Assembly: GCA_030426355.1 (NCBI GenBank) | Contig: JAUHYQ010000002.1 | Coordinates: 496,001-560,000 of the forward strand | Length of the DNA stretch: 64,000 nucleotides | Reading direction: 5' to 3' | From: Gammaproteobacteria bacterium | GTDB lineage: Bacteria > Pseudomonadota > Gammaproteobacteria > Steroidobacterales > GCA-2729495 | Shown here: piece by piece, positions 40,564 to 55,754 of the stretch | Numbering within the stretch: the stretch's first letter is position 1 | Layout of the letters: every line of letters starts with the position of its first letter | The notes under the pieces: generated by a model | Seen by the model: the letters and a program-made list of their open reading frames with translations, nothing else | What the model was told of the DNA's origin: nothing | Databases searched by the model: none | Made by a program: the position numbers and the translations under genes

Positions 40564-40587
40564 TGGTGCCCAGGAGAGGACTTGAAC
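40564..40587 (+). repeat. Direct repeat of the tRNA-Leu(CAG) 3' end; putative distal attachment site
   Basis: TGGTGCCCAGGAGAGGACTTGAAC is identical over 24 nt to the 3' end of tRNA-Leu at 55668. No remaining tRNA body follows. Confidence 0.8.
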
Positions 40588-40677
40588 TTTCATACCTAAG
40601 CTTTCCGCTAAGAGGGGGCTGTCGCATTACCCGCAAAGGCAACTCCGGCTGACTGCTTCTTTACTAAATTTTCAATA

Positions 40678-40696
40678 TGTGCGTCACCGTACAGAC
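40678..40696 (+). promoter_or_regulatory. Putative Crp/Fnr-type operator (site 1), upstream of the GlsB-like gene
   Basis: TGTGCGTCACCGTACAGAC; dyad TGTGC-N6-GTACA followed by GAC. Confidence 0.6.
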
Positions 40697-40751
40697 CTGA
40701 TCTGCGGCCGCAGCTATGTTATGCGAACTGCAATCACCGAGGTGCGAACTC

Positions 40752-41021
40752 ATGAACATCATTATCTGGCTGGTCATCGGCGGGCTTATCGGATGGGTTG
40801 CAAGCATGGTCATGGGCACCGATGGTCGGCAGGGAATTATTCTCAACGTAGTCGTCGGCATCGTCGGCGCTTTTCTCGGCGGACTGCTGTTCGGTGGTGT
40901 TTTTGGCACCTCCACTATTAATGAGGGTAACCTGAGTTTTAGCGCGTTACTGGTGTCGTTGCTGGGAGCGGTGATCCTGATAGCGATCGTGAAGTTCATT
41001 CGTGGTACTTCCGCCCGGTGA
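40752..41021 (+). CDS. GlsB/YeaQ/YmgE family stress-response membrane protein
   Basis: MNIIIWLVIGGLIGWVASMVMGTDGRQGIILNVVVGIVGAFLGGLLFG. Confidence 0.9.
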   Translation: MNIIIWLVIGGLIGWVASMVMGTDGRQGIILNVVVGIVGAFLGGLLFGGVFGTSTINEGNLSFSALLVSLLGAVILIAIVKFIRGTSAR

Positions 41022-41210
41022 CCCGAAATGTCGTGGATATCACAAACGACATCAGACAAAAAAGTAATACGGGCCGCGCGCGCGTATGTTCGGCGATTGA
41101 AATACCGTCGGTATGCTGCCGCACAGAGAGTTTACTACTCATAACAATAAATCAACTTTCCGGGCCCCTACCGTCTGCGCTCAGACCCCCATCAGGCGCA
41201 GGCTTTCGGT

Positions 41211-41233
41211 CCCCGGGGCAGATTGCCCCGGGG
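41211..41233. terminator. Strong GC-rich hairpin, possible terminator
   Basis: CCCCGGGGCA-GAT-TGCCCCGGGG, perfect 10-bp stem followed by a short T-rich stretch (GATTCTTTC). Confidence 0.45.
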
Positions 41234-41355
41234 GATTCTTTCGCATTTGCGTATTCCGAACGCTCCGATGTGCTGGATCAGTTGACAGACTCGATTGCAC
41301 AATGCGTCTGGGAAGACGAGGGTGGGTCAATCAATCCTGCAAAACGTGAGACAAA

Positions 41356-42111
41356 TTAAATTTTGCCGTGCAGCCAGAAATTCAATGTTGGCAAGACGTC
41401 GGATCCATCGCGACGGGCAACGGTTTTACTGAACATGGAGCGATCAGCGAGCTGCATTAGATGCGCAAAGTGCTGTCCGTCACCGGGATAGAATGCCACG
41501 CCATTCCTCACGGTGAGCCGGATTGAATAGCCGTCAAATACGTACGGTGCAGCCACTAGTTCACGGGCCGCTTTCAATGCCTTGACCGCTTGCTTGCGAT
41601 AATCAATTTCGGTCAACAGGACGACAAATTCGTCGTCGCCATAGCGACATACAGTGTCAGATTCTCGGAAAGCACCCGACAGTCGTTTGCCGACCTCCTG
41701 CAACAGCTTGTCTCCGGTTGTGCGGCCAAATCTGTCGTTAACGCGCTTGAAGCCGGACATGTCGAAAAACAGCAGTGCCAGTTGCTGGTGATGTCGGGTA
41801 GCGAGAGCTGCAGCCTGAATGAACCGTTCACGCAGGAGCTGACGGTCGGGCAGCCCGGTAAGCAAATCGTGGCGCGCAAGCTGACGGGCGCTTGCCAGCG
41901 TGAGTTCGAGCGAGGACACCGTTTCGGTGAGTGAATAACACTGTTGAAGCAGATCGGAATTTATTTGCAAGCTTTCCGCCAGTTCATGACGAGCGGCGTG
42001 CAACGCGGGAGGAAACTCCTCGGAGGCAACGATACTATCCACCTGTGTCTTAGTATGGCGCGCTATTTCGCCTGCGCCTGTGATAGACGGATTGCGCTCT
42101 GATGCCGACAT
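41356..42111 (-). CDS. GGDEF domain diguanylate cyclase-like protein
   Basis: ARHDLLTGLPDRQLLRERFIQA; LLFFDMSGFKRVNDRFGRTTGDKLLQEV; CRYGDDEFVVLL (GDDEF variant). Confidence 0.88.
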   Translation of the reverse strand: MSASERNPSITGAGEIARHTKTQVDSIVASEEFPPALHAARHELAESLQINSDLLQQCYSLTETVSSLELTLASARQLARHDLLTGLPDRQLLRERFIQAAALATRHHQQLALLFFDMSGFKRVNDRFGRTTGDKLLQEVGKRLSGAFRESDTVCRYGDDEFVVLLTEIDYRKQAVKALKAARELVAAPYVFDGYSIRLTVRNGVAFYPGDGQHFAHLMQLADRSMFSKTVARRDGSDVLPTLNFWLHGKI

Positions 42112-42163
42112 AGATTTCCCCTTGCGTAATGAACGAACCCTAGGGTCGGGCAGATGGTGTGTC

Positions 42164-42182
42164 TGTGCGGCAACGTACAGAC
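42164..42182 (+). promoter_or_regulatory. Putative Crp/Fnr-type operator (site 2), between GGDEF (-) and the PA2779-like gene (+)
   Basis: TGTGCGGCAACGTACAGAC. Confidence 0.6.
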
Positions 42183-42272
42183 GGCCTGGTGACTAGCTAG
42201 GAAAGTGCGGTCATGCAAAAGCCAATCGTTGGCTATTCATTTAACAAACCTAAAACTACAAGGGGTACTTCA

Positions 42273-42656
42273 ATGCGCTCAACCATGTTACAAAATTTCG
42301 TCGTCAGACTGGTCTCGCTCTCGCTTTTGAGTCTAGGCCTGCTGCAGACGTCCGGCGCTGCAATGATTGGCACTCAGCAAGGCATACAAAGCGGGGCGCA
42401 GGCTGCGCGTATCGTGCGTATAGAGACTATTCTCGCACGAGATGATGTTGCCCGGCAGTTGGTCGCGTTTGGCGTAGACCCGCTGGCAGTTCAATCGCGA
42501 GTTGCCAACCTTACAGATGCCGAATTGCTTGTGCTGGAAGGTAAGCTTGACAAGCAAGTTGCCGGCGCAGGCGTGATCGGTGTCATCGGTGTCGTATTCC
42601 TGGTGTTGATTATTCTGGAATTCGTGGGCGTTACGGACATATTTAAAAGAGTGTAA
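42273..42656 (+). CDS. PA2779 family small membrane protein
   Basis: Signal-like N-terminus; RIVRIETILARDDVARQLVAFGVDPLAVQSRVANLTDAELLVLEGKLD; C-terminal TM. Confidence 0.8.
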   Translation: MRSTMLQNFVVRLVSLSLLSLGLLQTSGAAMIGTQQGIQSGAQAARIVRIETILARDDVARQLVAFGVDPLAVQSRVANLTDAELLVLEGKLDKQVAGAGVIGVIGVVFLVLIILEFVGVTDIFKRV

Positions 42657-43636
42657 TGGCAGTCGGTGCCTCGCAGTTGACCAACTATTCAAAAAGGTTT
42701 GCGCAAATAGCGGCTCTTTTAATTTTTTTAATTCTGACGGGGTGCAGCATTATACCGCCAGTGCTCAGTGACTATGGGCCATCACCCAGCCCGCTCGAAC
42801 TGGTTGATACGCCCTTTTATTCGCAGCAGGAATTCCAGTGTGGGCCCGCGGCCTTGATGACCGTATTAACGGCGAGTGGGGTTGAGACTACGCTGGCTGA
42901 CGTGTCGAGGCAGGTCTATCTTCCAGCGCGTCAGGGCAGTTTACAAAGCGAAATGCTCGCGGCCTCACGGGCGGCTGAGCGAGTCCCCTATGTGCTTGTG
43001 CCCACGCTGTCCTCAATAACCGGCGAACTGGCGACGGGGCGACCTGTGCTGGTGTTGCTAAATCTGGGCGTTAGTTGGCTGCCTCGCTGGCACTATGCGG
43101 TAGTCGTCGGCGCGGATGCGGATCGCGAGCAAATCATTCTCCGTTCCGGTACCGATGAACGGCGAGTAATGGATGCATCCGTGTTTCTGCGTACCTGGAG
43201 GCGCAGCGATTTCTGGGCTGTGTCACTACTCAGGCCCGGAGAATTGCCCGCCAACCCCGACCGAAGCCGCTATATCGAAGCCGTCGCCGGGCTTGAACAA
43301 ACCGGGCATCCGCAGGCGGCGCGCGACGCCTGGCAGGCGGGGCTATCAATATGGCCCGATAACGCTGTCCTCATTTTTGGTCTGGCGAACGCGCAATACG
43401 CGCTCGGCAATCTCTCCGCTGCTGAGCTGCTTTATCTCGACATGCTGCGGGGCGATGCCGCATCCCTCATCGCGCGCAACAATCTGGCCATGACCTTGGT
43501 GGCGCAGGGTCGAAACAGGGACGCGCTTGAGCAAATCGATTCTGCATTGGAGCTTGCGGACGGCTCGCCGCTGCTGGAAGAGTTGCTGGACACGCAGCGC
43601 ATCATTCTGAGCGCGGTCAATGGCGCGTCGAACTAG
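42656..43636 (+). CDS. PA2778 family C39-like cysteine peptidase with TPR region
   Basis: LVDTPFYSQQEFQCGPAALMTVLTASGV (Gln/Cys motif), WHYAVVVG; TPR-like C-terminus; lipobox LTGCS. Confidence 0.85.
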   Translation: MAVGASQLTNYSKRFAQIAALLIFLILTGCSIIPPVLSDYGPSPSPLELVDTPFYSQQEFQCGPAALMTVLTASGVETTLADVSRQVYLPARQGSLQSEMLAASRAAERVPYVLVPTLSSITGELATGRPVLVLLNLGVSWLPRWHYAVVVGADADREQIILRSGTDERRVMDASVFLRTWRRSDFWAVSLLRPGELPANPDRSRYIEAVAGLEQTGHPQAARDAWQAGLSIWPDNAVLIFGLANAQYALGNLSAAELLYLDMLRGDAASLIARNNLAMTLVAQGRNRDALEQIDSALELADGSPLLEELLDTQRIILSAVNGASN

Positions 43637-43661
43637 AGGGGATCAATGTTGCATCTATATC

Positions 43662-43680
43662 TGTGCGTCAGCGTACAGAC
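43662..43680 (+). promoter_or_regulatory. Putative Crp/Fnr-type operator (site 3), upstream of a small lipoprotein
   Basis: TGTGCGTCAGCGTACAGAC. Confidence 0.6.
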
Positions 43681-43754
43681 TGTGCCTTGGCACAAATTGT
43701 AAATTTGCCAAAGTTAATGAAGAGAGGGTGACGCCTCACATAAGGACAAAAAAT

Positions 43755-43946
43755 ATGAAATGGCTGATGATAATACCGATAGCATTCCTCCTTCTGGCGT
43801 GTGAGCAGCAGGGGCCTCTGGAGCAAATCGGCGAAGAAATTGACGAGGCTGCCGAAGACATCAAGGCAGGCGGCGAAACAACCGGCAACAAGATCGATGA
43901 CGCATTTGACGACGTCCGAAAGAACGTCGAAGAGGCGGCTGACTAA
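43755..43946 (+). CDS. Small acidic lipoprotein
   Basis: MKWLMIIPIAFLLLACEQQGPLEQIGEEIDEAAEDIKAGGETTGNKIDDAFDDVRKNVEEAAD. Confidence 0.75.
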   Translation: MKWLMIIPIAFLLLACEQQGPLEQIGEEIDEAAEDIKAGGETTGNKIDDAFDDVRKNVEEAAD

Positions 43947-44013
43947 GCCGGTTTGATTTACCCTCGTGCGCTCCCCACCCCCACTTTTCACCCACAATGA
44001 GAGCGCACGGTTT

Positions 44014-44049
44014 AAAGCCCCCGGGATAGGATGTCCCGGGGGCTTTTTT
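44014..44049 (+). terminator. Rho-independent terminator
   Basis: AAAGCCCCCGGGA-taggatg-TCCCGGGGGCTTTTTT; long perfect stem with T tract, between convergent genes. Confidence 0.9.
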
Positions 44050-44097
44050 GTAAGGAACTTCATAAGTTTTTTGTGTGCGGCGATCTAAATCCGCGTG

Positions 44098-44784
44098 CTA
44101 TCCGAGTGTTCGATCGTACAATGCCTTGGAGGCCTGGTAGCAACTGCAGGAGGCTTTCTCCAGGCGGGTGCGATCCAGTATCTGGATTTCACCTCGGCTA
44201 TAGGCGAGGATTTTTCGCTGCTGCAATCGTCCCGCAGCATTGGTGATGCCCACGCGGCGGACGCCCAGCATTTGCGCCAGAAACTTGTGGGTGAGATGAA
44301 AGTCCCTGAAGTCTGCCCGGTCATGCGTCATGAGCAGCCAGCGGGCGAGCCTCAAGTCTATCGAGTGAAAGCTGATACAAGCGGCTGTGATCGCCAGCTG
44401 CCCTTGTAACACAAACACATAACGGTTCAATTGCTTTCGCCATGCGGGAAGGCGTTCGAGTTCGCGACGAAACGTTGCTGCGCTCATTTGCAGTGCGGTG
44501 CCAGGACCCTGCACCAGTGCCTCCATTGTAGGCGTGCGTACGTCAAGTAGCAGCGGCGTGCCCAGCATACCCTCATGCCCGATCAGTGCGAGCTCAAGAT
44601 TCGCATGGGGATCAACGGGCACTAGCTGGGATATAAAACAATCGAGCGGAAAGTAGACGTGCCGGATGCGTTGCTGCGGTTCATACAGCACGTCACCCAT
44701 GAGCAATTCGACTTCCCGACAGGCCGCACGCAGCTGACGCTGATTGCTGCTACTCAGTGTGTTTAACAATCGATTTCTTTGCAT
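44098..44784 (-). CDS. Crp/Fnr family transcriptional regulator (copy 1)
   Basis: RHVYFPLDCFISQLVPV; C-terminal HTH LTHKFLAQMLGVRRVGITNAAGRLQQRKILAYSRGEIQILDR. Confidence 0.87.
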   Translation of the reverse strand: MQRNRLLNTLSSSNQRQLRAACREVELLMGDVLYEPQQRIRHVYFPLDCFISQLVPVDPHANLELALIGHEGMLGTPLLLDVRTPTMEALVQGPGTALQMSAATFRRELERLPAWRKQLNRYVFVLQGQLAITAACISFHSIDLRLARWLLMTHDRADFRDFHLTHKFLAQMLGVRRVGITNAAGRLQQRKILAYSRGEIQILDRTRLEKASCSCYQASKALYDRTLG

Positions 44785-44911
44785 GACCCGATTTTCGGAC
44801 TTTTGCCGGAAAAGTCGGTGCTTTGGCGAACATATGGCGAAATCAGTGTGCTCGCCGATGCGCGCTCTGCACATGTCCTCGGTCGCTTAGGAAAGAAACC
44901 TCGTGATTAAA

Positions 44912-45637
44912 CTAAAGTTTGGTCTTTGGGATATCCATAAGTAGCCGGTCAAACTCCCGCTTGACCACGCTGTAGCATTCGCACACATGTGCCTCGAGTT
45001 TATGCCGGTCGAGCACTTTAATACGTCCTCGGCTGTATTCGATAATCCCTGATTTCTTCAAATTGCCAGCAGCCTCCGTGACCCCTTCGCGCCGCACGCC
45101 GAGCATATTGGCAATCAACTCCTGCGTCATGGTTAATTCATTGGATGGCAGGCGGTCGAGACTCAGGAGTAACCAGCGGCACAGCTGCTGATCCACGGAA
45201 TGATGTCTATTGCACACAGCGGTTTGTGACATCTGAGTGATCAGCGCCTGGGTGTACCGCAGCAACAGATGCATCGTGGGTCCGTAGCGATTGAATTCCT
45301 GTTTCAATTGCTGTGCCGGCAATCGGTAGCTAAACCCCTGACTCTGAACGACCGCACGGCTTGGTGTGGTCTCGCCGCCCATGAAAAGCGAAATGCCCAG
45401 AACTCCTTCGTTGCCAACAACGGCAATTTCCGCCGATGCGCCATCTTGCATGACGTACAAGAGCGATACGATGGAATCAGTCGGGAAGTAGACATGTTGC
45501 AGGTGCCCACCAGATTCGTAGAGCACTTGTCCGAGTTTCAATGGTGTCAGTTTCAGATGCGGGCTTATGCGCTCATAGTCGCTTGCAGGAAGGGCCGCCA
45601 GCAGGAGGTTTTGTTTAGGATCGGGCGGGTTTGCCAT
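44912..45637 (-). CDS. Crp/Fnr family transcriptional regulator (copy 2)
   Basis: QHVYFPTDSIVSLLYVMQDG; HTH MTQELIANMLGVRREGVTEAAGNLKKSGIIEYSRGRIKVLDR. Confidence 0.88.
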   Translation of the reverse strand: MANPPDPKQNLLLAALPASDYERISPHLKLTPLKLGQVLYESGGHLQHVYFPTDSIVSLLYVMQDGASAEIAVVGNEGVLGISLFMGGETTPSRAVVQSQGFSYRLPAQQLKQEFNRYGPTMHLLLRYTQALITQMSQTAVCNRHHSVDQQLCRWLLLSLDRLPSNELTMTQELIANMLGVRREGVTEAAGNLKKSGIIEYSRGRIKVLDRHKLEAHVCECYSVVKREFDRLLMDIPKTKL

Positions 45638-45737
45638 TTATGTGAACACCATGGTGAAAAAATGGCCTGAGCGGATTGGAATGATCGGGCTGCATCTGCC
45701 GCTCGGGTTGACTGTTGCGGTTTCAGTATAGGCCGAA

Positions 45738-45754
45738 GTGTGCGGTACCGCACC
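45738..45754. promoter_or_regulatory. Palindromic element in the divergent intergenic region (possible extra Crp/Fnr-type site)
   Basis: GTGCGGTACCGCAC (45740-45753) is a perfect 14-nt palindrome; reads as TGTGC-GGTACC-GCACC. Confidence 0.4.
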
Positions 45755-45784
45755 AAGTATGTGGCTTGACGGTTTACCAAGCAA

Positions 45785-45803
45785 AGTGCGCTGGCGTACA
45801 GAC
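45785..45803 (+). promoter_or_regulatory. Putative Crp/Fnr-type operator (site 4), upstream of the DUF4398 gene
   Basis: AGTGCGCTGGCGTACAGAC. Confidence 0.55.
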
Positions 45804-45865
45804 GGGCGTCGACTTCATGCGGACAATGTCCCTTTACAGATAACTGCTCACTCTGGAGTGCTGCA

Positions 45866-46267
45866 ATGCTTATATCGTTATTAATAAACCCGCGCCATCG
45901 ACTGTATGTGACAGCGGCTTGTACCGCGGTCATGTTGTTTTTGGCTGGCTGCGCAACCATGCCGACGGCGCCCACGGCCTCGCTTGAGGAGGCGAAAAGC
46001 GCAATTCGATCGGCTGAAAAAGAAGACGCGAGCCGCTATGCCATCGCGGAGTTGGATGAAGCGCGGCAGAAACTCATTCTGGCTGATAAGGCCGTTGTGT
46101 CTGAAGACATGATTCTGGCTGAGCGGCTTGCCCAAGAGTCCATCGTAACTGCGCAGCTTGCCGCCGCGAGGACCGAGGCGAAAAAAGCCGAAGCGGTTAA
46201 CGAAGAAATGAGTCGGGGTGCGGATGCCCTGATTGAAGAAATGCAACGGGTCGGAGATCAGCAATGA
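45866..46267 (+). CDS. DUF4398 domain lipoprotein
   Basis: LFLAGCATMPTAPTASLEEAKSAIRSAEKEDASRYAIAELDEARQKL. Confidence 0.82.
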   Translation: MLISLLINPRHRLYVTAACTAVMLFLAGCATMPTAPTASLEEAKSAIRSAEKEDASRYAIAELDEARQKLILADKAVVSEDMILAERLAQESIVTAQLAAARTEAKKAEAVNEEMSRGADALIEEMQRVGDQQ

Positions 46268-47184
46268 ACACAATTACTATCAAATATGCTCGCGAATGTT
46301 ATCGCGTCGCTGGAGTCATCGTCATTGCGGTAGTCGCTGCGTTCGCGGTTGCCAGCTGTGTAACAACGCCAAAGATGGCATCCGGCGCGGCTGAAGCGCG
46401 CGACAAACTGACGGTACTGCAATCAAATTCGAAGCTGGCCGATATGGCTCCCGTCGAGATCAGAGAAGCCGAGGCTTCCGTTTTGATTGCCGAGCAGCCG
46501 GTTGGCACCGATGCTGCATTGAGCAAGCACCGTGTGTACATGGCCGACCGCAAGGTTGAAATCGCGATGGCCAACGCGGCGACGCGCTACGCTGAAAGCC
46601 AACGCGCGGTCCTGAGTCAGAAGCGTGACCAGGTCCGTCTGGATGCCCGCACACGCGAGGCGGATAGAGCGAAGCGGCAAGCCGCAGAGTCAAAACTTGC
46701 GACCGAGGCCGCGCGCGTTGGAGCCGCCGCCGCGGCAGCCGATGCGGCAAGCAACAAGGCGGAAATGCAGCGGCAGATTGATCTGCTAAAGGCTGAAGCC
46801 ACAGACCGCGGTCTGGTGCTGACGCTTGGCGACGTGCTTTTTGCCACCGGTCGATCTGATCTGAAGTCGGGCGGAAACGGCACGCTCGACAAGCTCGTGG
46901 CGTTTCTTAACGAGTATCCCGATCGCAACGTTGCCATTGAAGGTCATACGGACGATGTAGGCAGCCTTGAAATGAACCAGACCTTGTCACAGCAGCGTGC
47001 AGATTCGGTCAAGAACTATTTATTGCAACAGGGTATCCAGCCCAGGCGATTGCTCGCTTCAGGCATGGGTGAGACCCAACCGATTGCGGACAACCTGTCC
47101 GCGAGTGGACGGCAGCAAAATCGTCGCGTTGAAGTGATCATTAAGAACCCGCCGTCGACTATTCCGACGGCCTCAACAAAATAA
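46264..47184 (+). CDS. OmpA family protein with DUF4398-like N-terminus
   Basis: GLVLTLGDVLFATGRSDL...NVAIEGHTDDVGSLEMNQTLSQQRADSVKNYLLQQGI. Confidence 0.9.
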   Translation: MNTITIKYARECYRVAGVIVIAVVAAFAVASCVTTPKMASGAAEARDKLTVLQSNSKLADMAPVEIREAEASVLIAEQPVGTDAALSKHRVYMADRKVEIAMANAATRYAESQRAVLSQKRDQVRLDARTREADRAKRQAAESKLATEAARVGAAAAAADAASNKAEMQRQIDLLKAEATDRGLVLTLGDVLFATGRSDLKSGGNGTLDKLVAFLNEYPDRNVAIEGHTDDVGSLEMNQTLSQQRADSVKNYLLQQGIQPRRLLASGMGETQPIADNLSASGRQQNRRVEVIIKNPPSTIPTASTK

Positions 47185-47209
47185 TCAGAAGGGCTGACGG
47201 GTACAAACC

Positions 47210-47737
47210 ATGATAAGCAAACAACTTGTAATCGGCGGTATTGTTGGCGCAATAGCGGTCACCGCTATTGGTGCGACGGCCGGCTACCGAATGCTCGATT
47301 CGGCGACCTACGCAGAAGTATTGTCCGCAAAGCCTGTGAACAAAACAGTGTTCGTTCCGCGTGAGGAGTGTCGTGACCAGGTCGTTTCTGTGCAGCGTCC
47401 AACCCAGGATCCCAATCAAATCGCCGGGACAATAGCAGGCGCTGTCGTTGGCGGCATTGTCGGCAGCAAGGTTGGCGGCGGTGACGGCAAGAAGGTCGCC
47501 ACGGTAGGTGGCGCTGTTGCGGGTGGTTATGCGGGCAAGAAGGTTCAGGAAGGCATGCAAGACAGGAATGTCGACCAGGTAAGTGAGCGCGTTTGCGAGA
47601 CGATGCAGGACAGCCGGCAGGAGCAGGTTGGTTACGACGTAACCTATCTGCTCGATGGGCAGCAAAGCACGATTCGCATGACCGACGATCCAGGCAGGCG
47701 CATCCGTATCGAGAACGGCAAGCCGGTTATCGAGTAA
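47210..47737 (+). CDS. Glycine-zipper 2TM domain protein
   Basis: IAGTIAGAVVGGIVGSKVGGGDGKKVATVGGAVAGGYAGKKVQ. Confidence 0.85.
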   Translation: MISKQLVIGGIVGAIAVTAIGATAGYRMLDSATYAEVLSAKPVNKTVFVPREECRDQVVSVQRPTQDPNQIAGTIAGAVVGGIVGSKVGGGDGKKVATVGGAVAGGYAGKKVQEGMQDRNVDQVSERVCETMQDSRQEQVGYDVTYLLDGQQSTIRMTDDPGRRIRIENGKPVIE

Positions 47738-47827
47738 AGCCTATTTAGGAAATAGCAAACCCAAATGATGTCAGGTCGCATGTGACGAGCTGAAGATTTC
47801 AGAGTATTTACATTGGAGTTAAACAAA

Positions 47828-48382
47828 ATGTACAACAAGAATAGAATGATCGTTCAATCCGCAGTCATAGCAATCGTTGTGATGAGTTCGCTAAATTTCG
47901 CGAACGCGGCGACCTCGGACGACCTCGACAAAGATTCCAGCCAGGCGCTGCAGACCCTTTATAAGACGCAGTCTATGGCCGAGACTCTTTCAAAGACTGC
48001 AAAGGCCGTGCTCGTGTTTCCGAATATTGTCAAGGCAGGTTTTGTCTTTGGCGGCAGTTATGGTGAAGGCGAATTGATCCAAAGCATGAAAGTCGTCGAT
48101 TACTACAACACCGTTGGTGGGTCCTGGGGCCTTCAGGCGGGCGCGCAGTCATACGGCTACGCGATTTTTCTTATGACGGACGAAGCGGTGTCCTACCTGA
48201 GAGAGTCCAAGGGCTGGGAAATCGGTGTCGGTCCGACAGTAGTCGTGGTGGACGAGGGTGTGGCAAAGAACCTATCGACATCTTCACTTCAGGAAGATGC
48301 CTATGCGTTTATTTTTAGTCAGCAAGGGTTAATGGCGGGCATAAGCATCGAAGGAACGAAGGTTTCAAAGATCGAACGTTAA
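47828..48382 (+). CDS. SYLF/YSC84 domain lipid-binding protein
   Basis: SKTAKAVLVFPNIVKAGFVFGGSYGEGEL...GSWGLQAGAQSYGYAIFLMTDEA. Confidence 0.88.
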   Translation: MYNKNRMIVQSAVIAIVVMSSLNFANAATSDDLDKDSSQALQTLYKTQSMAETLSKTAKAVLVFPNIVKAGFVFGGSYGEGELIQSMKVVDYYNTVGGSWGLQAGAQSYGYAIFLMTDEAVSYLRESKGWEIGVGPTVVVVDEGVAKNLSTSSLQEDAYAFIFSQQGLMAGISIEGTKVSKIER

Positions 48383-48464
48383 AAAAACCAATTTAGTTGA
48401 ACAGACATTAATACGCAGTCATTTAACTGCGAGAAATTTGCGGAATTATTTCAAGGGAAAGTTT

Positions 48465-48788
48465 ATGGAAACTCAAGCAACAGGTCCCGTCGTTGATGGT
48501 AACGGATTACAAGACGCCAAGACGCAGCGATCTATTACACAAAGGGTTGCAAGCTCTGCGCACGAATCTATTGATAGTGCATCAGGAAAAGCTGAGGAAA
48601 TTGAATCACAACTGCGTGCGGGCGCTGTAAAAGCAGGTGCAAAGCTCGAGGAATCGCAGGAGGCGACAATCGCGCAGGTTGAGGAGTCGCTCACAAAGCT
48701 TGGTTCTTTTGTTAAGGGCAGGCCCATTGCCGCGGCCGGTATTGCGTTCGCGGCGGGTGTGCTGGCGACGGTGTTACTGCGTCGATAA
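48465..48788 (+). CDS. YqjD/ElaB-like DUF883 membrane-anchored protein
   Basis: Helical N-terminus, C-terminal RPIAAAGIAFAAGVLATVLLRR anchor. Confidence 0.78.
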   Translation: METQATGPVVDGNGLQDAKTQRSITQRVASSAHESIDSASGKAEEIESQLRAGAVKAGAKLEESQEATIAQVEESLTKLGSFVKGRPIAAAGIAFAAGVLATVLLRR

Positions 48789-48804
48789 TTGATATAACCG
48801 ACTC

Positions 48805-49233
48805 ATGCATGCAACTACGGCAGCTAAGCCCGGTACAGCGAGTGACCAGGCGAGCATAGCGACACTCGTCGCCACTTGGATATCGGCGACGAGTGCGCGT
48901 ATTCGGATAACGACCGAGCTTGCGTTCGCTGAAGCCCGACTTGCGGCCATCAGCCTGACGCTGATGGTCCTGCTGGGAATGCTGTCCGCACTATTCCTGC
49001 TAGGCGCCTGGGCGCTTGTCGTGGCAGGGCTTGCAGCGGCAGTCGTTAAGCTCGGCGTTTCTTTATGGATCACTCTTTTGTCGCTGAGCCTGGTTCATGC
49101 GATCGGCGCATGGCTTTTGTGGCGCGGAGCAGTGCGGCTTAGCCGTTATCTCGAATTCGCGGCAACACGACAGCAATTCCAGCATGCGCAGGAGGCGGAT
49201 AATGACGTGGACAGCACAGCGACGTCTCGTTAA
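48805..49233 (+). CDS. Phage holin-like (YqjE-like, DUF1469) membrane protein
   Basis: Two TM hairpins (LTLMVLLGMLSALFLLGAWALVVAGLAAAVVKLGVSLWITLLSL); downstream of the YqjD-like gene. Confidence 0.72.
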   Translation: MHATTAAKPGTASDQASIATLVATWISATSARIRITTELAFAEARLAAISLTLMVLLGMLSALFLLGAWALVVAGLAAAVVKLGVSLWITLLSLSLVHAIGAWLLWRGAVRLSRYLEFAATRQQFQHAQEADNDVDSTATSR

Positions 49234-49489
49234 TTTGCTATCGGAACAGGCACACGATCAAAAACGTGAAGCCAAGCGTGTTCGCAATGCGCTGCACGAA
49301 TGGATGAGCAGCTATCTGGGCAGTCGTGAGGCACTGGTCTGGCTCTTCGCCATCGGCGCCTTGTCTGCCGCCGGTCGTTCTTCTGCGGCCGACAGCAGCA
49401 GCGCGCGACGTTTGTTAATTGCAGCCATCAATACGTCATTGCTGGCGTGGCAGCTGGTAAACCGCCAGTTTGTATTGAATAAAGTCTAA
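49202..49489 (+). CDS. YqjK-like small protein
   Basis: ATG at 49202 overlaps the upstream ORF; position after the YqjD/YqjE-like genes. Confidence 0.5.
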   Translation: MTWTAQRRLVNLLSEQAHDQKREAKRVRNALHEWMSSYLGSREALVWLFAIGALSAAGRSSAADSSSARRLLIAAINTSLLAWQLVNRQFVLNKV

Positions 49490-49586
49490 AAAAGGCTCCT
49501 TGAGTAGCTTCTTCGTCGGTTATTCGAGAGGTGCGGTGTTGTCGTCTGCCTGAGTCATGGATTAGTAAAGCATGATCCTCAAGTAT

Positions 49587-50153
49587 TTATACAGAATTCG
49601 CTGCTTCTTTAACGGCTTGTATATCTTCGGCTATCATCATTGCCTGTTCTGAACGCTTAATCGCTACAGAGGAATATCGGGCAGCAATGTCGGACACTTT
49701 TGCATGATCGATTGCGGCAAGTGCGCGAAGCGCTTTCTGTAAGCGAATAGCAACTTCGACGCACGAAGCCCCGTCGCGGGCAATTGACTGAAAGGCATCG
49801 CAAAACATGTCATCCAGCGATAGTTCAGGAACGCCTACGCGATCAAACTGAACATCGGTTTCGGCAGTACTAGCCGAAGGCGACAGCCAAAGGCTAAAAA
49901 GCCGCACGAGAACGCCAATAATCATGATCGCCGTACCCGGATCGTTGACACTCGTCGATAGAGCACGAGAACCTATTTCTGCCAACGCGATTAGGCCGAA
50001 CCGCGGGTCTTCGTCAAATGTTCGACTGCGACCAATTACAAACGCGGACGCGATAGCCGCTGAGTCGAGTTCAGCAGGGTCCCCGTCAACGCAACTTTCG
50101 AGACCAACGGCAGCGCCACCAAGGTGACGACCACCTTCGATGCCGAAGATCAA
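49587..50153 (-). pseudogene. 5'-truncated DUF2254-like protein (C-terminal part only)
   Basis: AFVIGRSRTFDEDPRFGLIALAEIGSRALSTSVNDPGTAIMIIGVL resembles the DUF2254 C-terminal half; the N-terminal TM half is missing and replaced by sequence antisense to another gene fragment. Confidence 0.6.
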
Positions 50154-50225
50154 AATTCAATCGAGATGCAGCGGGATGGCAGGCAGGCGATTCTGAATAA
50201 TCTTAAGAGCTATGTCGAAGGATAG
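50064..50225 (+). pseudogene. C-terminal fragment of an SRPBCC/AHSA1-like protein
   Basis: Frame ending at TAG 50223-50225 reads FSRVPVNATFETNGSATKVTTTFDAEDQNSIEMQRDGRQAILNNLKSYVEG*; in-frame TGA at 50061 just upstream. Confidence 0.5.
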
Positions 50226-50268
50226 CGCCTAACTTTGCTGCCCACGACTTTATTGCGTCGGCGTGCGA

Positions 50269-50290
50269 TGGTGCCCAGGAGAGGACTTGA
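50269..50290 (+). repeat. Direct repeat of the tRNA-Leu(CAG) 3' end; putative internal attachment site
   Basis: TGGTGCCCAGGAGAGGACTTGA, 22 nt identical to 55668-55689 and to 40564-40585. Confidence 0.8.
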
Positions 50291-50604
50291 GCCCACACGC
50301 TTCCCAGCTTCGCTGAGCGCCTGTAACCCTTTGATTTAAAAGGGTTTGAAATTTCCTGTTAGTTCAGGAAGTTACCTGAGTGTACCACCTGTTTGTTACC
50401 GAGCCGAGTCTTGGGTTTAGCTATACGTACAACGCCAAATTGGCTCAAGAGAACCCAATTACGCAAGATCTGCCCCAGAAATTCTAATTTCAATCAGTGA
50501 CTTGTCGATTGTTTGGAACATAACATGATATATACTCAACGGCAGTCGCAGGCAAAGTCTAGAAGAAATAATAAACGGACGCCTCATCGACAAATTCCCG
50601 TATT

Positions 50605-51969
50605 TTGCTGCGGCTTCTTTGCCGTCAGAAGAAGCTTGGGGGGAGAATGCGTTTCAGACAGTTCGTGAAGCCAGTCATATCTTTATGCTTAGTTTTAACT
50701 TTGCAGTCTGTATATGCGAATGGTTTCTATATTCACGACAAAGGGGCTATTGCGACGGGCTTGAGTAACGCCGGCGTCACAGCACGTGCTGGCGACGGCA
50801 GCACGCTTTATTTCAACCCGGCAGGCATGACTAGGCTGCCTGCAATGCTGCAAATCGGAATCGATACGACATTCCCACGCGTAGATAGCGACAACGCGGG
50901 TTCTACTGCCGCGACACCCGGTACCGGTAACGCGGATGTCGCTTTTGCGGGTGGTTCCAGTAGTAATCCGATCGATCCGACACCCATACCTCACGTCTAC
51001 GCTGTTTACCCCGTATCGAATTCTAATCTTTGGCTAGGCTTGGCAATCACTGCGCCATTCGGCCTGGCCGTTGAATACGATGATGATTGGTTTGGGCGTT
51101 ACGACAGTATTGAGTCAAAACTGACAACAATTGATATTGCCCCGACATTGGCCTGGCGTATTTCAGATCAGTGGTCCGTAGGTGGAGCAATCAATGTCCA
51201 GTATGCCGATGGCAAGTTGACGACAGCCTTGCCCGACCCGCTCAATCTTGGTGGGCCAACACCGCAGACGGATGGGCGGAGTAAGTTGGAAGGGGATGAC
51301 TGGGGGCTTGGCTTTACTGTCGGTGTCCTGTGGCAACCGATGCCATCAGTAAGGGTCGGTGCAAGTTACCGGTCGCAGATCGATCATACGCTCGACGGTG
51401 ATCTGGAAATCACCGGATTAACCGGTCCACTCGATGGTTTTAACGGAAAACAAGGCGGGTCGACCGACATCGATTTGCCCGCAATCGCCTCGCTCGCCAT
51501 TGCTTACGAATGGTCCGATAAACTCACCAGTTACCTGGAAGGTAACTGGTACGGGTGGAGTAGCTTCGAGGAGATACGCGCAACCGTCGATTCTGGCGAT
51601 ACGGCTTTTGTTCGACCGCAAGATTACTCAGATACCTGGGGCGTAGCTGCTGGGCTCGAATACAAGCTAAATGAAACATGGGAATTGCGGAGCGGCATTC
51701 GATATGACGACACTCCAACGCAAGACGAATTTCGTAACACCGCTATTCCCGACGAGCAGTCTGTTATAGCTGCTATAGGGTTCTCTGCTGCCGTGACCGA
51801 GCGTTTCTATGTTGATGGGGCTTATCAGCATTTTTTCTATGCCGATGCCAGCGTTTCTGTTACGGAAGAGTTTTATAGCGGAACGCCACTGCAATCTGCT
51901 GTAACAACAAGAGCAGATGTCGAGTCTTACTCGAATGTCATTTCGATCGATTTGCGATATGAATTCTAG
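50605..51969 (+). CDS. OmpP1/FadL-like outer membrane transporter
   Basis: NGFYIHDKGAIATGLSNAGVTARAGDGSTLYFNPAGMTRLP; beta-barrel ending in aromatic residue (IDLRYEF). Confidence 0.9.
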   Translation: MLRLLCRQKKLGGRMRFRQFVKPVISLCLVLTLQSVYANGFYIHDKGAIATGLSNAGVTARAGDGSTLYFNPAGMTRLPAMLQIGIDTTFPRVDSDNAGSTAATPGTGNADVAFAGGSSSNPIDPTPIPHVYAVYPVSNSNLWLGLAITAPFGLAVEYDDDWFGRYDSIESKLTTIDIAPTLAWRISDQWSVGGAINVQYADGKLTTALPDPLNLGGPTPQTDGRSKLEGDDWGLGFTVGVLWQPMPSVRVGASYRSQIDHTLDGDLEITGLTGPLDGFNGKQGGSTDIDLPAIASLAIAYEWSDKLTSYLEGNWYGWSSFEEIRATVDSGDTAFVRPQDYSDTWGVAAGLEYKLNETWELRSGIRYDDTPTQDEFRNTAIPDEQSVIAAIGFSAAVTERFYVDGAYQHFFYADASVSVTEEFYSGTPLQSAVTTRADVESYSNVISIDLRYEF

Positions 51970-52035
51970 GCTTTCAATTCTTGAAGACCGGATGATGAGT
52001 CTGGGGAATAGGGGTGCAACCGCGGGAGTCTCAGT

Positions 52036-52794
52036 ATGACTGTAGGCTACATCGTAACGCTGATATTGCTTGCAATTATCAATTTCCCCTTCGTTATTGC
52101 AGTTGATTGGTACGTAAGACGTCCGAATACAAAGTTCGTTTACAAGGTGGAGCCCGAGCCTGGGCAAGTTTCAAGGGAAAAGCGCAGTGCCGTTATTACA
52201 ACGCCTGTCCACGCTCTTTTGCTTGGTGGGTTCTTTCTCTCCGGTTGGCTGGTGCCTGCGCCCGAAACCCTGCCGACAATCGCTTCTACTTTCTTAATTG
52301 TCTTTTTCTGGACCGAGATTTGGCACTATGTCTCGCATATCGCGATGCACACTAAACCGTTGCATTTCATTCATCGTGAGCATCATAAATCGATGCTAAC
52401 GAACCCTTGGACGTCGGTGTCTTTTTCTTTTCTTGAGAAATTCATTTTCTCCGCGGGGATCATAGGTTTTGTTGCTATCTTGTCCCATTGGATGCCGATA
52501 TCTTTCTACGGTATAGCCGCCTACTATGTCCTTTATTTCTATACCAATACGCTTGGGCACGCGAATTTCGAGTTTCGCAAGCCGCATTATTATGAGTCCT
52601 GGTTAGGAAAGCTTTTTAACTCTCCGTCATTCCATGCGATGCATCACGCCCGCTACACAAAGAACTACGGGCTTTTGACTCCTTGGTTAGATATTTTATT
52701 CGGCACTGCCTGGGAGGACTTCTCCCAGGTGCAGACACGAGCCGCAGAATCCAAGCCGTTAACTCGTCTTCGCGAAAAGGCCACTCCGATATGA
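52036..52794 (+). CDS. Sterol desaturase/fatty acid hydroxylase superfamily membrane enzyme
   Basis: His-box motifs HYVSHIAMHTKPLHFIHREHHKS and FHAMHHARYTKNYG; multiple TM segments. Confidence 0.9.
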   Translation: MTVGYIVTLILLAIINFPFVIAVDWYVRRPNTKFVYKVEPEPGQVSREKRSAVITTPVHALLLGGFFLSGWLVPAPETLPTIASTFLIVFFWTEIWHYVSHIAMHTKPLHFIHREHHKSMLTNPWTSVSFSFLEKFIFSAGIIGFVAILSHWMPISFYGIAAYYVLYFYTNTLGHANFEFRKPHYYESWLGKLFNSPSFHAMHHARYTKNYGLLTPWLDILFGTAWEDFSQVQTRAAESKPLTRLREKATPI

Positions 52795-53471
52795 GCGATA
52801 ACGGAGATTCATATAACGCGCCATTTTCGCCGTCGCTTGGGACTCGTGTGCAAGATTTGTTGGACCGGACCGAGTACAGACGCATTTGCGACGCGGGAGA
52901 GGCTCGGGAAATCTATCAGCTTCGCTATAATGCATACTTCTCAGAGGGGGCAATACAGCCAAATGGGGTCGAGTACCTGAAAGATGAGTACGACGATGCT
53001 CAAAACGCTTATCTTATTGGCGTTTTTATCGATGGAGACTTGGCGGGTTCGATTCGGCTGCATTTAATCGATTCCCAATCTGAAAGCTCTCCGGCTATGA
53101 GTACCTACGATGACGTTTTGGGAGAGCTGCGTACTTCGTCTACAAAAATTCTTGATCCAAACCGATTTGTTGCAAACCAAAGAGTAAGCAGAAAGTGCCC
53201 CGAATTGCCTTTTGTGACCCTCCGTATCCCTTTTATGGCTGCAGAATACTTCAATGTTAATTATGCGACTGCGACGGCTCGCAGGGAGCATATGCCTTTC
53301 TACAAGAAGTATCTTCGATATAAAAAAATAACTGACCCGCGTCCTTATCCAACGCTAACGAAGCCGTTAGGCTTGATGCTTGTTTCTTTCCAGGAGGAAC
53401 GAGAAGCTGTAGTTAGTAAATATCCATTTTTCGCGGGTAGGCCTGGCGAAGCGGAATCTCTATTGGGCTAG
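52791..53471 (+). CDS. FeeM-type N-acyl amino acid synthase (GNAT/autoinducer-synthase-like fold)
   Basis: EIYQLRYNAYFSEGAIQPNGVEYLKDEYDDAQNAYLIGVFIDGDLAGSIRLHLI...ILDPNRFVANQ...LPFVTLRIPFMAAEYFN...PRPYPTLTKPLGLM; ATGA overlap with the upstream hydroxylase gene. Confidence 0.75.
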   Translation: MSDNGDSYNAPFSPSLGTRVQDLLDRTEYRRICDAGEAREIYQLRYNAYFSEGAIQPNGVEYLKDEYDDAQNAYLIGVFIDGDLAGSIRLHLIDSQSESSPAMSTYDDVLGELRTSSTKILDPNRFVANQRVSRKCPELPFVTLRIPFMAAEYFNVNYATATARREHMPFYKKYLRYKKITDPRPYPTLTKPLGLMLVSFQEEREAVVSKYPFFAGRPGEAESLLG

Positions 53472-53521
53472 GGTTTCCAAAATTTAACCAATTCTTCAAT
53501 CTCCGGTTGTATCGTAAAGAT

Positions 53522-53821
53522 ATGGCAAAAACCCGCGATTGGAGCCTTCACGATTACTGGAATCGGCTGTTGCCGAACAAGGGGCGATTCGCGCTAGATT
53601 TTGCGCAGGCGGCTAAAGTCTCGGATCCAGACGTTGAAGTTACCGATGATCTGCTGGCGGAGTGCTACGTCACCGCTGCCAGGCTCGTCGAGGCCCACGG
53701 CGAAGTCTATTTACCCTTGTTCGAGAGATTGCATGCCGAGATAGGGCTCCGCCGCAGGCAGCACGATCTGCTGGTTAAGGCCCGTTCAGTCGCTCGTAAC
53801 GTCGAAACAAATCTTCTCTAG
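53522..53821 (+). CDS. Hypothetical protein convergent with the integrase
   Basis: ~100 aa ORF MAKTRDWSLHDYWNRLLPNKGRFALDFAQAAKVSDPDVEVTDDLLAECYV...; overlaps the integrase 3' end. Confidence 0.5.
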   Translation: MAKTRDWSLHDYWNRLLPNKGRFALDFAQAAKVSDPDVEVTDDLLAECYVTAARLVEAHGEVYLPLFERLHAEIGLRRRQHDLLVKARSVARNVETNLL

Positions 53822-55567
53822 CCAGTTCTTCTTTTGTTCGAGCGTCGGCCCGTCCCCATAGCGTTCCCGTTCGTACTTGTGACCCATTAGCATGGCCTGG
53901 ATCTTTTCGGGCGGTTCTACGGCTGTCAGTCGATCCTCAAAGCTGTGCCTCAGGCTATAAACGCAGTGTTGTTTGGTCGGAAGAAGATCATGAGTACGTA
54001 GGTATTTATTCAATGTCGCCGATAGGGCGTCTGGACGGCCCCTGTAGTGCTCGAAACCGTTGGGCAGGTTCCGGAAGGCATATAGCGCAGAGCCCACGAG
54101 CGGCAGGCTACGCCTGCTGTGCGGCGTTTTTAGCTGTCGAATGCTATTTGGGCGGATGTGACCGTTGCCGCGTTTGTCGAGCCGTGAGAACCAGTGCGAC
54201 ACGGTCTTGGCGAGCCGTCCCTGTTTGTTGCGCTTCAGTTTGAACAGGCTCGTGTCCTGCTTGTCCTTGCGCCGTTGAGCAACAAAGTCCAGAAAGCCAA
54301 TCTCAAGCAGAGTGGTGTGGAGCGGAATTGGCCGCACCGAGCTTTTGGTCTTGGTGCGTTTTTTCGCACCGTCGGCCGCCGTGCCGCGATCGTCGATGTT
54401 CATGTACACAATGCCGGTGTCCGGACAGGTGTGAATGTCCTTCACCGTGAGTTGCCCGAGCTCTTCGAGACGCGCGCCGGAGAATGCGGCGAGCAACGGA
54501 AACCAGAACTTGGTGTCCTGGTCGAGCCCGCCGCGATTGACGCCAAAGTCGACGCCGTAGTCGCTGCCGGGGAATATCTTTCTGAAATCCTCGGTGGAGA
54601 AGGGCAGCCGTTCGATTGAGCGGCTTTGCTTGGTGTTTGGGACTTCAATGCGGTCCGACAGCTTTTGCTCAATGAAGCCGCAGTCATAGGCGTATTCGAG
54701 CACGCCTTTTAACTGGCCCAGATACTCGGCTCGCGTTTTGTCGGAAATAATCGCATGATCGCTGTCTAGGTCCTTTGCCTGGCGCACCGCCTGCGCGGTC
54801 GTTAAACCTTGCTTGGCAAAGTTGACCGGCAGGCGTGCGAGCCACAGCTGCACGTCACTGAGTTCGTGCGGCGTGATCTCGTGAATGTTCCGCTCGCCAA
54901 AATGGTCCTGCCAGAATTCCAGCCGACCTTGATAGTTTTGCAGCGTGCGCTCGGACAGTCGCTTGCCGCGACGGCCCTGGATTTCGAGCTTGTTGATATA
55001 CGCGCTGACGACACCGGAAAACGGCTTGGTTTGGCTCGGCGTCGATGGGGTCTGGCCGCTGAGCTTGTTATTGATCTGCACCAGCAGCTCTAAAACGGCG
55101 GGGTTGTCTTCGTAGTGTTTGAGCAACTCGGCGGCATTGCGCTGCAAGGCGAGCGCCGCTTGCAGCTCGCCTTCGGGATTATCAAGATCAATGCGGTGGG
55201 TGCGGCCGAAGACATCGGTTGTTTCGATGATGTGCGCGATATCGTCGCCGTGTCGCGATCGAATAATCTCTTCTTCGCTGCGTTTTTTGACCATCGCGCC
55301 CCGTGCCTTTAACCAGGCGCGAAACTCGGTGCCTGCCGCAAACCGTGGAGCACGGTGCGGAGCCATTTGAAGCGCCTTAAAACCGTCCTGACATTCTACC
55401 CAAAACCGCAACGCTCGGCCTTTGGCCTGTTTAACGTCCGCGGTCTTTAGGCTGCAGCGGATTTCCCGTTGGCCGTGAAAGTGTCGGCGGACGGATTGGG
55501 GGATGACGATCCGGGCGTACCAGATATTCTGGTGCCGGTTACGCACTAAAAATTGAGCTTTCGCCAT
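53786..55567 (-). CDS. Tyrosine-type site-specific integrase
   Basis: Catalytic elements FSGARLEELGQL (R), YSLRHSFEDRL (HxxR), LMGHKYERERYGDGP (H...Y); adjacent to the tRNA-Leu att site. Confidence 0.92.
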   Translation of the reverse strand: MAKAQFLVRNRHQNIWYARIVIPQSVRRHFHGQREIRCSLKTADVKQAKGRALRFWVECQDGFKALQMAPHRAPRFAAGTEFRAWLKARGAMVKKRSEEEIIRSRHGDDIAHIIETTDVFGRTHRIDLDNPEGELQAALALQRNAAELLKHYEDNPAVLELLVQINNKLSGQTPSTPSQTKPFSGVVSAYINKLEIQGRRGKRLSERTLQNYQGRLEFWQDHFGERNIHEITPHELSDVQLWLARLPVNFAKQGLTTAQAVRQAKDLDSDHAIISDKTRAEYLGQLKGVLEYAYDCGFIEQKLSDRIEVPNTKQSRSIERLPFSTEDFRKIFPGSDYGVDFGVNRGGLDQDTKFWFPLLAAFSGARLEELGQLTVKDIHTCPDTGIVYMNIDDRGTAADGAKKRTKTKSSVRPIPLHTTLLEIGFLDFVAQRRKDKQDTSLFKLKRNKQGRLAKTVSHWFSRLDKRGNGHIRPNSIRQLKTPHSRRSLPLVGSALYAFRNLPNGFEHYRGRPDALSATLNKYLRTHDLLPTKQHCVYSLRHSFEDRLTAVEPPEKIQAMLMGHKYERERYGDGPTLEQKKNWLEKICFDVTSD

Positions 55568-55667
55568 GGCTCACCTCGCTTCGGTGTACCACCCTGGTGT
55601 GTGACCAGGGATAAACCATGCTTAGCGAAGTGAAAATTCCTTAACCGGCGAGGGGTTAAGAAGATTG

Positions 55668-55754
55668 TGGTGCCCAGGAGAGGACTTGAACCTCCACGAC
55701 CTTTCGATCACTAGCACCTGAAGCTAGCGCGTCTACCAATTCCGCCACCTGGGC
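55668..55754 (-). tRNA. tRNA-Leu (CAG anticodon)
   Basis: Reverse complement GCCCAGGTGGCGGAATTGGTAGACGCGCTAGCTTCAGGTGCTAGTGATCGAAAGGTCGTGGAGGTTCAAGTCCTCTCCTGGGCACCA; class II variable arm; anticodon loop TTCAGGT. Confidence 0.96.

Follow-up and report, generated by a model that had tools for sequence, protein, structure and literature searches.

The window, by which we mean the whole 64,000-nucleotide stretch analysed, contains a 5.4-kb att-bounded element (50269-55667) with an operon of FadL, hydroxylase and acyltransferase genes in its interior (Table 1). The element comprises five ORFs: these three genes, all intact and co-directional, a 99-aa ORF and an integrase. Perfect 22-nt copies of the tRNA-Leu 3' end occur at 40564, 50269 and 55668, with a chance expectation of 0.00 (100 shuffles), and ARAGORN detects no tRNA gene at the 50269 copy. 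The integrase and the flanking direct repeats of a tRNA 3' end thus identify an integrative element at a tRNA gene, and the sequence-only reading, which had placed the operon between tRNA-Leu att repeats with an integrase, is borne out by the repeats, the tRNA-Leu (CAG) gene and the integrase domains. None of the five ORFs is a relaxase, conjugation or replication gene, which leaves the element outside the ICE/IME class; 50269-55667 is a minimal non-conjugative integrative element inserted in the 3' end of tRNA-Leu (CAG). The proposal that the pathway may be transferable therefore stands for an att-bounded integrase element that would be excisable and passively carried, and is not supported in the sense of self-transmission. 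The 99-aa ORF between the operon and the integrase has no known family or relative in Pfam and homologue searches, and is possibly an accessory protein of the element.

Table 1. Features of the integrative element and its surroundings, in window coordinates
Feature	Coordinates	Strand	Evidence
Third, outermost tRNA-Leu 3'-end repeat (att scar), left end of second tandem island	40564..40585		perfect 22-nt match
att repeat, distal end of 5.4-kb element (displaced tRNA-Leu 3' end)	50269..50290		perfect 22-nt match
FadL-type outer membrane transporter, 440 aa, signal peptide, NPA hatch motif	50647..51969	+	PF03349 E 7e-85
Membrane fatty-acid-hydroxylase-superfamily enzyme, 252 aa, nine conserved His	52036..52794	+	PF04116 E 1e-19
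FeeM-like N-acyltransferase, 226 aa, start overlaps hydroxylase stop (ATGA), Asp122	52791..53471	+	PF21926 E 4e-38
Small ORF, 99 aa, 3' end overlaps integrase 3' end	53522..53821	+	ORF call + Pfam
Tyrosine integrase, DUF6538 N-terminal domain, tRNA-proximal	53786..55567	-	PF20172 E 1e-13, PF02899, PF00589
Intact tRNA-Leu (CAG), integration target; 3' end 55668-55689 = proximal att copy	55668..55754	-	ARAGORN + repeat match

Four congeners retain the tRNA-Leu-rnr pair with different sequence next to it, and no integrase homologue was found in these four genomes. Outside the element, the outer pair of the same 22-bp tRNA-Leu repeat delimits a second tandem island of 9.7 kb (40564-50269), whose cargo includes a GGDEF protein, two Crp-type regulators, OmpA/DUF4398, Ysc84 and other stress or envelope genes; no integrase is seen within it. 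The repeat at 40564, its left end, is an addition to the sequence-only reading. A truncated DUF2254 gene (49587-50153, minus strand), retaining only the last ~118 of 368 profile positions, adjoins the inner att copy, and a longer DUF2254-like gene adjoins the same tRNA-Leu in one congener (G001, L132 494-1753), with 45% identity over the common part. PADLOC returned no match, and a defence role was rejected.

The three genes of the operon were each assigned by Pfam, in agreement with the earlier description of a co-directional FadL, His-box hydroxylase and FeeM-like gene, and the acyltransferase ATG does lie in an overlap with the hydroxylase TGA, as had been noted. The FadL and hydroxylase genes are separated by 66 bp. 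GC3 is 0.51 in the FadL gene, 0.545 in the hydroxylase gene and 0.46 in the acyltransferase gene, values beneath those of all other long ORFs in the window (n = 41; mean 0.64, sd 0.037, minimum 0.557), while the integrase, at 0.69, is not low. The trio therefore seems to share a history apart from that of the integrase. Promoter and terminator scans gave matches no better than those in shuffled sequence.

The transporter belongs to the FadL/TodX family (PF03349, 285 bits against a cut-off of 29.7) and shares with the FadL long-chain fatty acid transporters a signal peptide and an NPA motif, both located by sequence inspection. Its start is the ATG at 50647, which is preceded by GGGGGAGA and opens the signal peptide, making the earlier TTG start at 50605 less likely. 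Among solved structures, a probable outer membrane protein (3DWO) and E. coli FadL come closest to it; its closest plasmid homologues share ~30-33% identity with it, and, as a point of difference from the family, this FadL is carried on a mobile element. Profile searches detect one PF03349 protein in the 99.7% complete host genome, the element's own; none turned up in four congeners. The host thus owes its sole FadL to the element. In Sinorhizobium fredii, FadL takes up long-chain AHLs (PMC9938287). Because FadL proteins conduct inward in the cases tested, export is a less likely form of the transport first proposed for the element's protein than uptake or re-uptake.

The hydroxylase scores 71.7 bits against PF04116 (cut-off 31) and carries the boxes H101xxxH105, H113xxHH117 and H200xxHH204 together with H175, nine His residues that are invariant in an alignment of 12 relatives. 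The earlier view of a complete His-box hydroxylase is retained, with one correction: the HYVSH motif cited for it overlaps the first box (H101xxxH105) by a single His. All nine conserved His of the FA_hydroxylase superfamily are present, but the enzyme falls in a subfamily of its own. A fold search with its model gave no solved structure below E 2, a profile search of the PDB found nothing, and there is no NCBIfam match. Three further hydroxylase matches (L150-L152, E about 1e-23) have no FeeM neighbour, look like generic family members and were set aside.

The acyltransferase passes the FeeM family profile PF21926 with 131 bits against a cut-off of 27. Its AlphaFold model (pLDDT 95) retrieves six chains of FeeM (2G0B) at the top of a Foldseek search of the PDB, with E down to 3e-12 and a TM-score of 0.82 by target, and AHL synthases further down with much weaker scores, confirming the FeeM-like fold proposed from sequence. 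A phmmer search against the PDB yielded chance ribosomal-protein matches only, and a profile search found FeeM. On shared Pfam family and fold, long-chain acyl transfer is expected, although identity to 2G0B in the fold alignment is 16-18% and the active site differs: the profile alignment places Asp122 at the position of the FeeM catalytic Glu95. This Glu is essential in Nas354, where E103A kills the enzyme (PMC4897644). Among 89 aligned sequences, 78 have Asp at the catalytic position and 3 have Glu, which indicates that the Glu-to-Asp exchange is a clade trait and not decay. D65xxD68, R89 and D122xxR125 are conserved in the acyltransferase clade. Judging by an alignment to MesI (6WNS), these residues may be the counterpart of the acidic/basic cluster (DxxD, R, E/DxxR) of LuxI. 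The DxxD and DxxR elements, which resemble those of AHL synthases, set the enzyme apart from FeeM, as do its partners, a hydroxylase and a FadL. Because of Asp122 in place of Glu95 and the AHL-synthase-like cluster, we describe the enzyme as FeeM-like and refrain from classing it as a strict type I NAS.

The PF21926 cut-off is exceeded in one of 40 genomes of the family, the host; at class level 69 of the 369 genomes sampled pass it, most of these matches being remote. The acyltransferase of L005, a genome of the same class, is identical to that of a named Granulosicoccaceae contig (L107), from which the host is probably a gammaproteobacterium; no FeeM protein over the cut-off was found in the four congeners. 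Its absence, at this cut-off, from the 39 other family genomes is among the points that bear out the sequence-only reading. The nearest relatives, from an alignment-based contig scan, are 80 loci, almost all alphaproteobacterial, at 32-40% identity. In the tree, the window acyltransferase stands by itself on a long branch, with a roseobacter clade on one side and a Phyllobacteriaceae-dominated clade on the other, its exact place unsure. Most members of the alphaproteobacterial PF21926 clade (~30-40% identity) share Asp at the catalytic position and the same LDPxRF and EHxxFY motifs, but their neighbours are a SAM methyltransferase and a sensor kinase, or a GGDEF-EAL protein, and the loci searched include no case of a hydroxylase or FadL among these neighbours. 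By tblastn, phmmer and profile search, neither partner occurs within 7 kb, or to the contig end, of the ~80 nearest relatives; conservation of the trio elsewhere, which the sequence-only reading had set as a test of the operon, is thus not observed, and the full trio appears nowhere else among the loci searched. Searches of viral contigs and phage records gave no match to the acyltransferase, and plasmids hold relatives of 25-35% identity only, five of them in annotated neighbourhoods with neither hydroxylase nor FadL; the Loktanella plasmid relatives are annotated as AHL synthase.

Near the relatives, a GGDEF-EAL protein is found in 47 cases, a sensor kinase in 24 and a SAM methyltransferase in 21. 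The GGDEF-EAL pairing (L053 4471-7705 and 46 similar loci, mostly in Phyllobacteriaceae) recalls Nas354, which has a c-di-GMP (PilZ) domain (PMC4897644), and trzAS, which has c-di-GMP genes next to it (PMC12856293). The methyltransferase-linked relatives, including Roseovarius and Loktanella, lie inside one well-supported clade. R. tolerans DSM 11457 has two methyltransferase-acyltransferase pairs (L057 6106-7690, with a gap of ~10 bp, and L063), with which we group L050 and L042 as one side observation. Roseovarius and Loktanella make N-acyl amino acid methyl esters, and a 2024 paper states that a candidate gene for the synthase had yet to be found (PMC11580390); from its gene context, the acyltransferase clade offers a candidate for this synthase. 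The context of these relatives also suggests a small neutral amino acid as the possible substrate of the window acyltransferase.

A close hydroxylase homologue turned up in one of roughly 1,200 genomes sampled from the phylum, G655 (E 5e-56, 41-44% identity). There, as in the window, the gene that follows begins within the stop codon of the hydroxylase (ATGA; L144 7405-9146). That gene (L144 7405-8382) specifies a fusion of a cNMP-binding and a PF21926 domain (E 3e-12). The two loci are alike in the hydroxylase and in the stop-start overlap with a PF21926 acyltransferase gene, but the G655 acyltransferase is another subtype, only 15% identical to that of the window when aligned over its full length with the additional cNMP domain counted in, and no FadL or integrase homologue was found near the pair in 18 kb. 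Because the two partner acyltransferases are so different, the hydroxylase has become paired with a FeeM-type enzyme in two contexts that diverge from each other. Recurrence of the stop-start-coupled pair in a distant genome, a single case, supports a joint pathway and is the best evidence for one. Against a shared pathway, the acidic residue at the catalytic position appears to be missing from the G655 acyltransferase.

The lack of a FadL beside the G655 pair makes the place of FadL the weakest link in the pathway, and its role there a weak assignment. It also favours the foremost, though unlikely, alternative, that FadL is unrelated and the pathway consists of the hydroxylase-acyltransferase pair only, or that the three genes came together by chance as cargo. 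Unrelated genes frequently accumulate in small islets, and the trio is not seen elsewhere. The low GC3 common to all three genes, their single direction, their short spacing and the lack of other cargo argue against this, as does the recurrence of the hydroxylase-acyltransferase pair with the same overlap.

Also improbable, and ranked behind a passenger FadL, is a membrane-lipid or salvage function, in which FadL would import a fatty acid or lipophile, the hydroxylase would oxidise its chain and the acyltransferase would cap it or build a hydroxylated aminolipid of the ornithine-lipid type. FadL is first in the operon, long-chain fatty acid transporters are among the closest of its relatives with a solved structure, the host genus is otherwise devoid of FadL, and OlsE, placed in the same superfamily by the sequence-only reading, is a hydroxylase that modifies aminolipids (PMC11631085). 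However, the element lacks the second (O-)acyltransferase of a two-step aminolipid pathway, and the loci examined show the acyltransferase relatives beside regulators and methyltransferases. Least probable of all is that the acyltransferase acylates a SAM-like or activated acceptor to give an AHL-type or AHL-mimicking signal, which the hydroxylase would decorate and FadL re-import: a weak PF00765 match (E 5e-4), a residue cluster common to AHL synthases in the MesI alignment and partly missing in FeeM, the annotation of the Loktanella plasmid relatives and AHL uptake by the Sinorhizobium FadL speak for it, but the structure search puts FeeM far ahead of any AHL synthase, PF00765 reaches 20.2 bits against a 24-bit cut-off and far below PF21926, and no LuxR-type gene is among the five ORFs.

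We favour an element-borne pathway of FeeM-like enzyme, hydroxylase and FadL with inward transport, which as a whole we hold at even chances. The element has its integrase at the tRNA end and, as cargo, a three-gene operon of foreign composition. The FeeM-like enzyme would acylate an amino acid, probably a small neutral one, with a long-chain group drawn, by analogy, from acyl-ACP, and the translationally coupled membrane di-iron hydroxylase would hydroxylate the N-acyl product or its acyl precursor. The FadL barrel, the only one of the host, would carry the amphiphile, or the fatty acid that feeds it, inward across the outer membrane; with such inward transport, we propose the compound as a shared or re-imported signal or surfactant. 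Weighing against this reading are the Glu-to-Asp exchange, the divergence of the G655 acyltransferase and its apparent want of the acidic residue, the lack of the exact trio in the other loci searched, the 66 bp between FadL and hydroxylase genes, the missing FadL in G655 and a hydroxylase that matches no solved structure. The interpretation is partly supported, by the enzyme families and the hydroxylase-acyltransferase link; substrates, order of reactions, FadL role and biological purpose are what we infer. Of the operon as first read, the FeeM-like fold, the His-box hydroxylase, the integrase element and the pair backed by G655 are retained; the trio is not conserved elsewhere in the loci searched.

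A literature search found no paper that joins the FadL, hydroxylase and FeeM-type families. With partial support, the locus adds a variant, carried by a minimal integrative element, to the known N-acyl amino acid synthase loci, its products being predicted. If this reading is true, the hydroxylase-acyltransferase pair would represent an unrecorded tailoring route for N-acyl amino acids, and a complete small-molecule function, to make, tailor and take up a compound, would move between bacteria in less than 5.5 kb.
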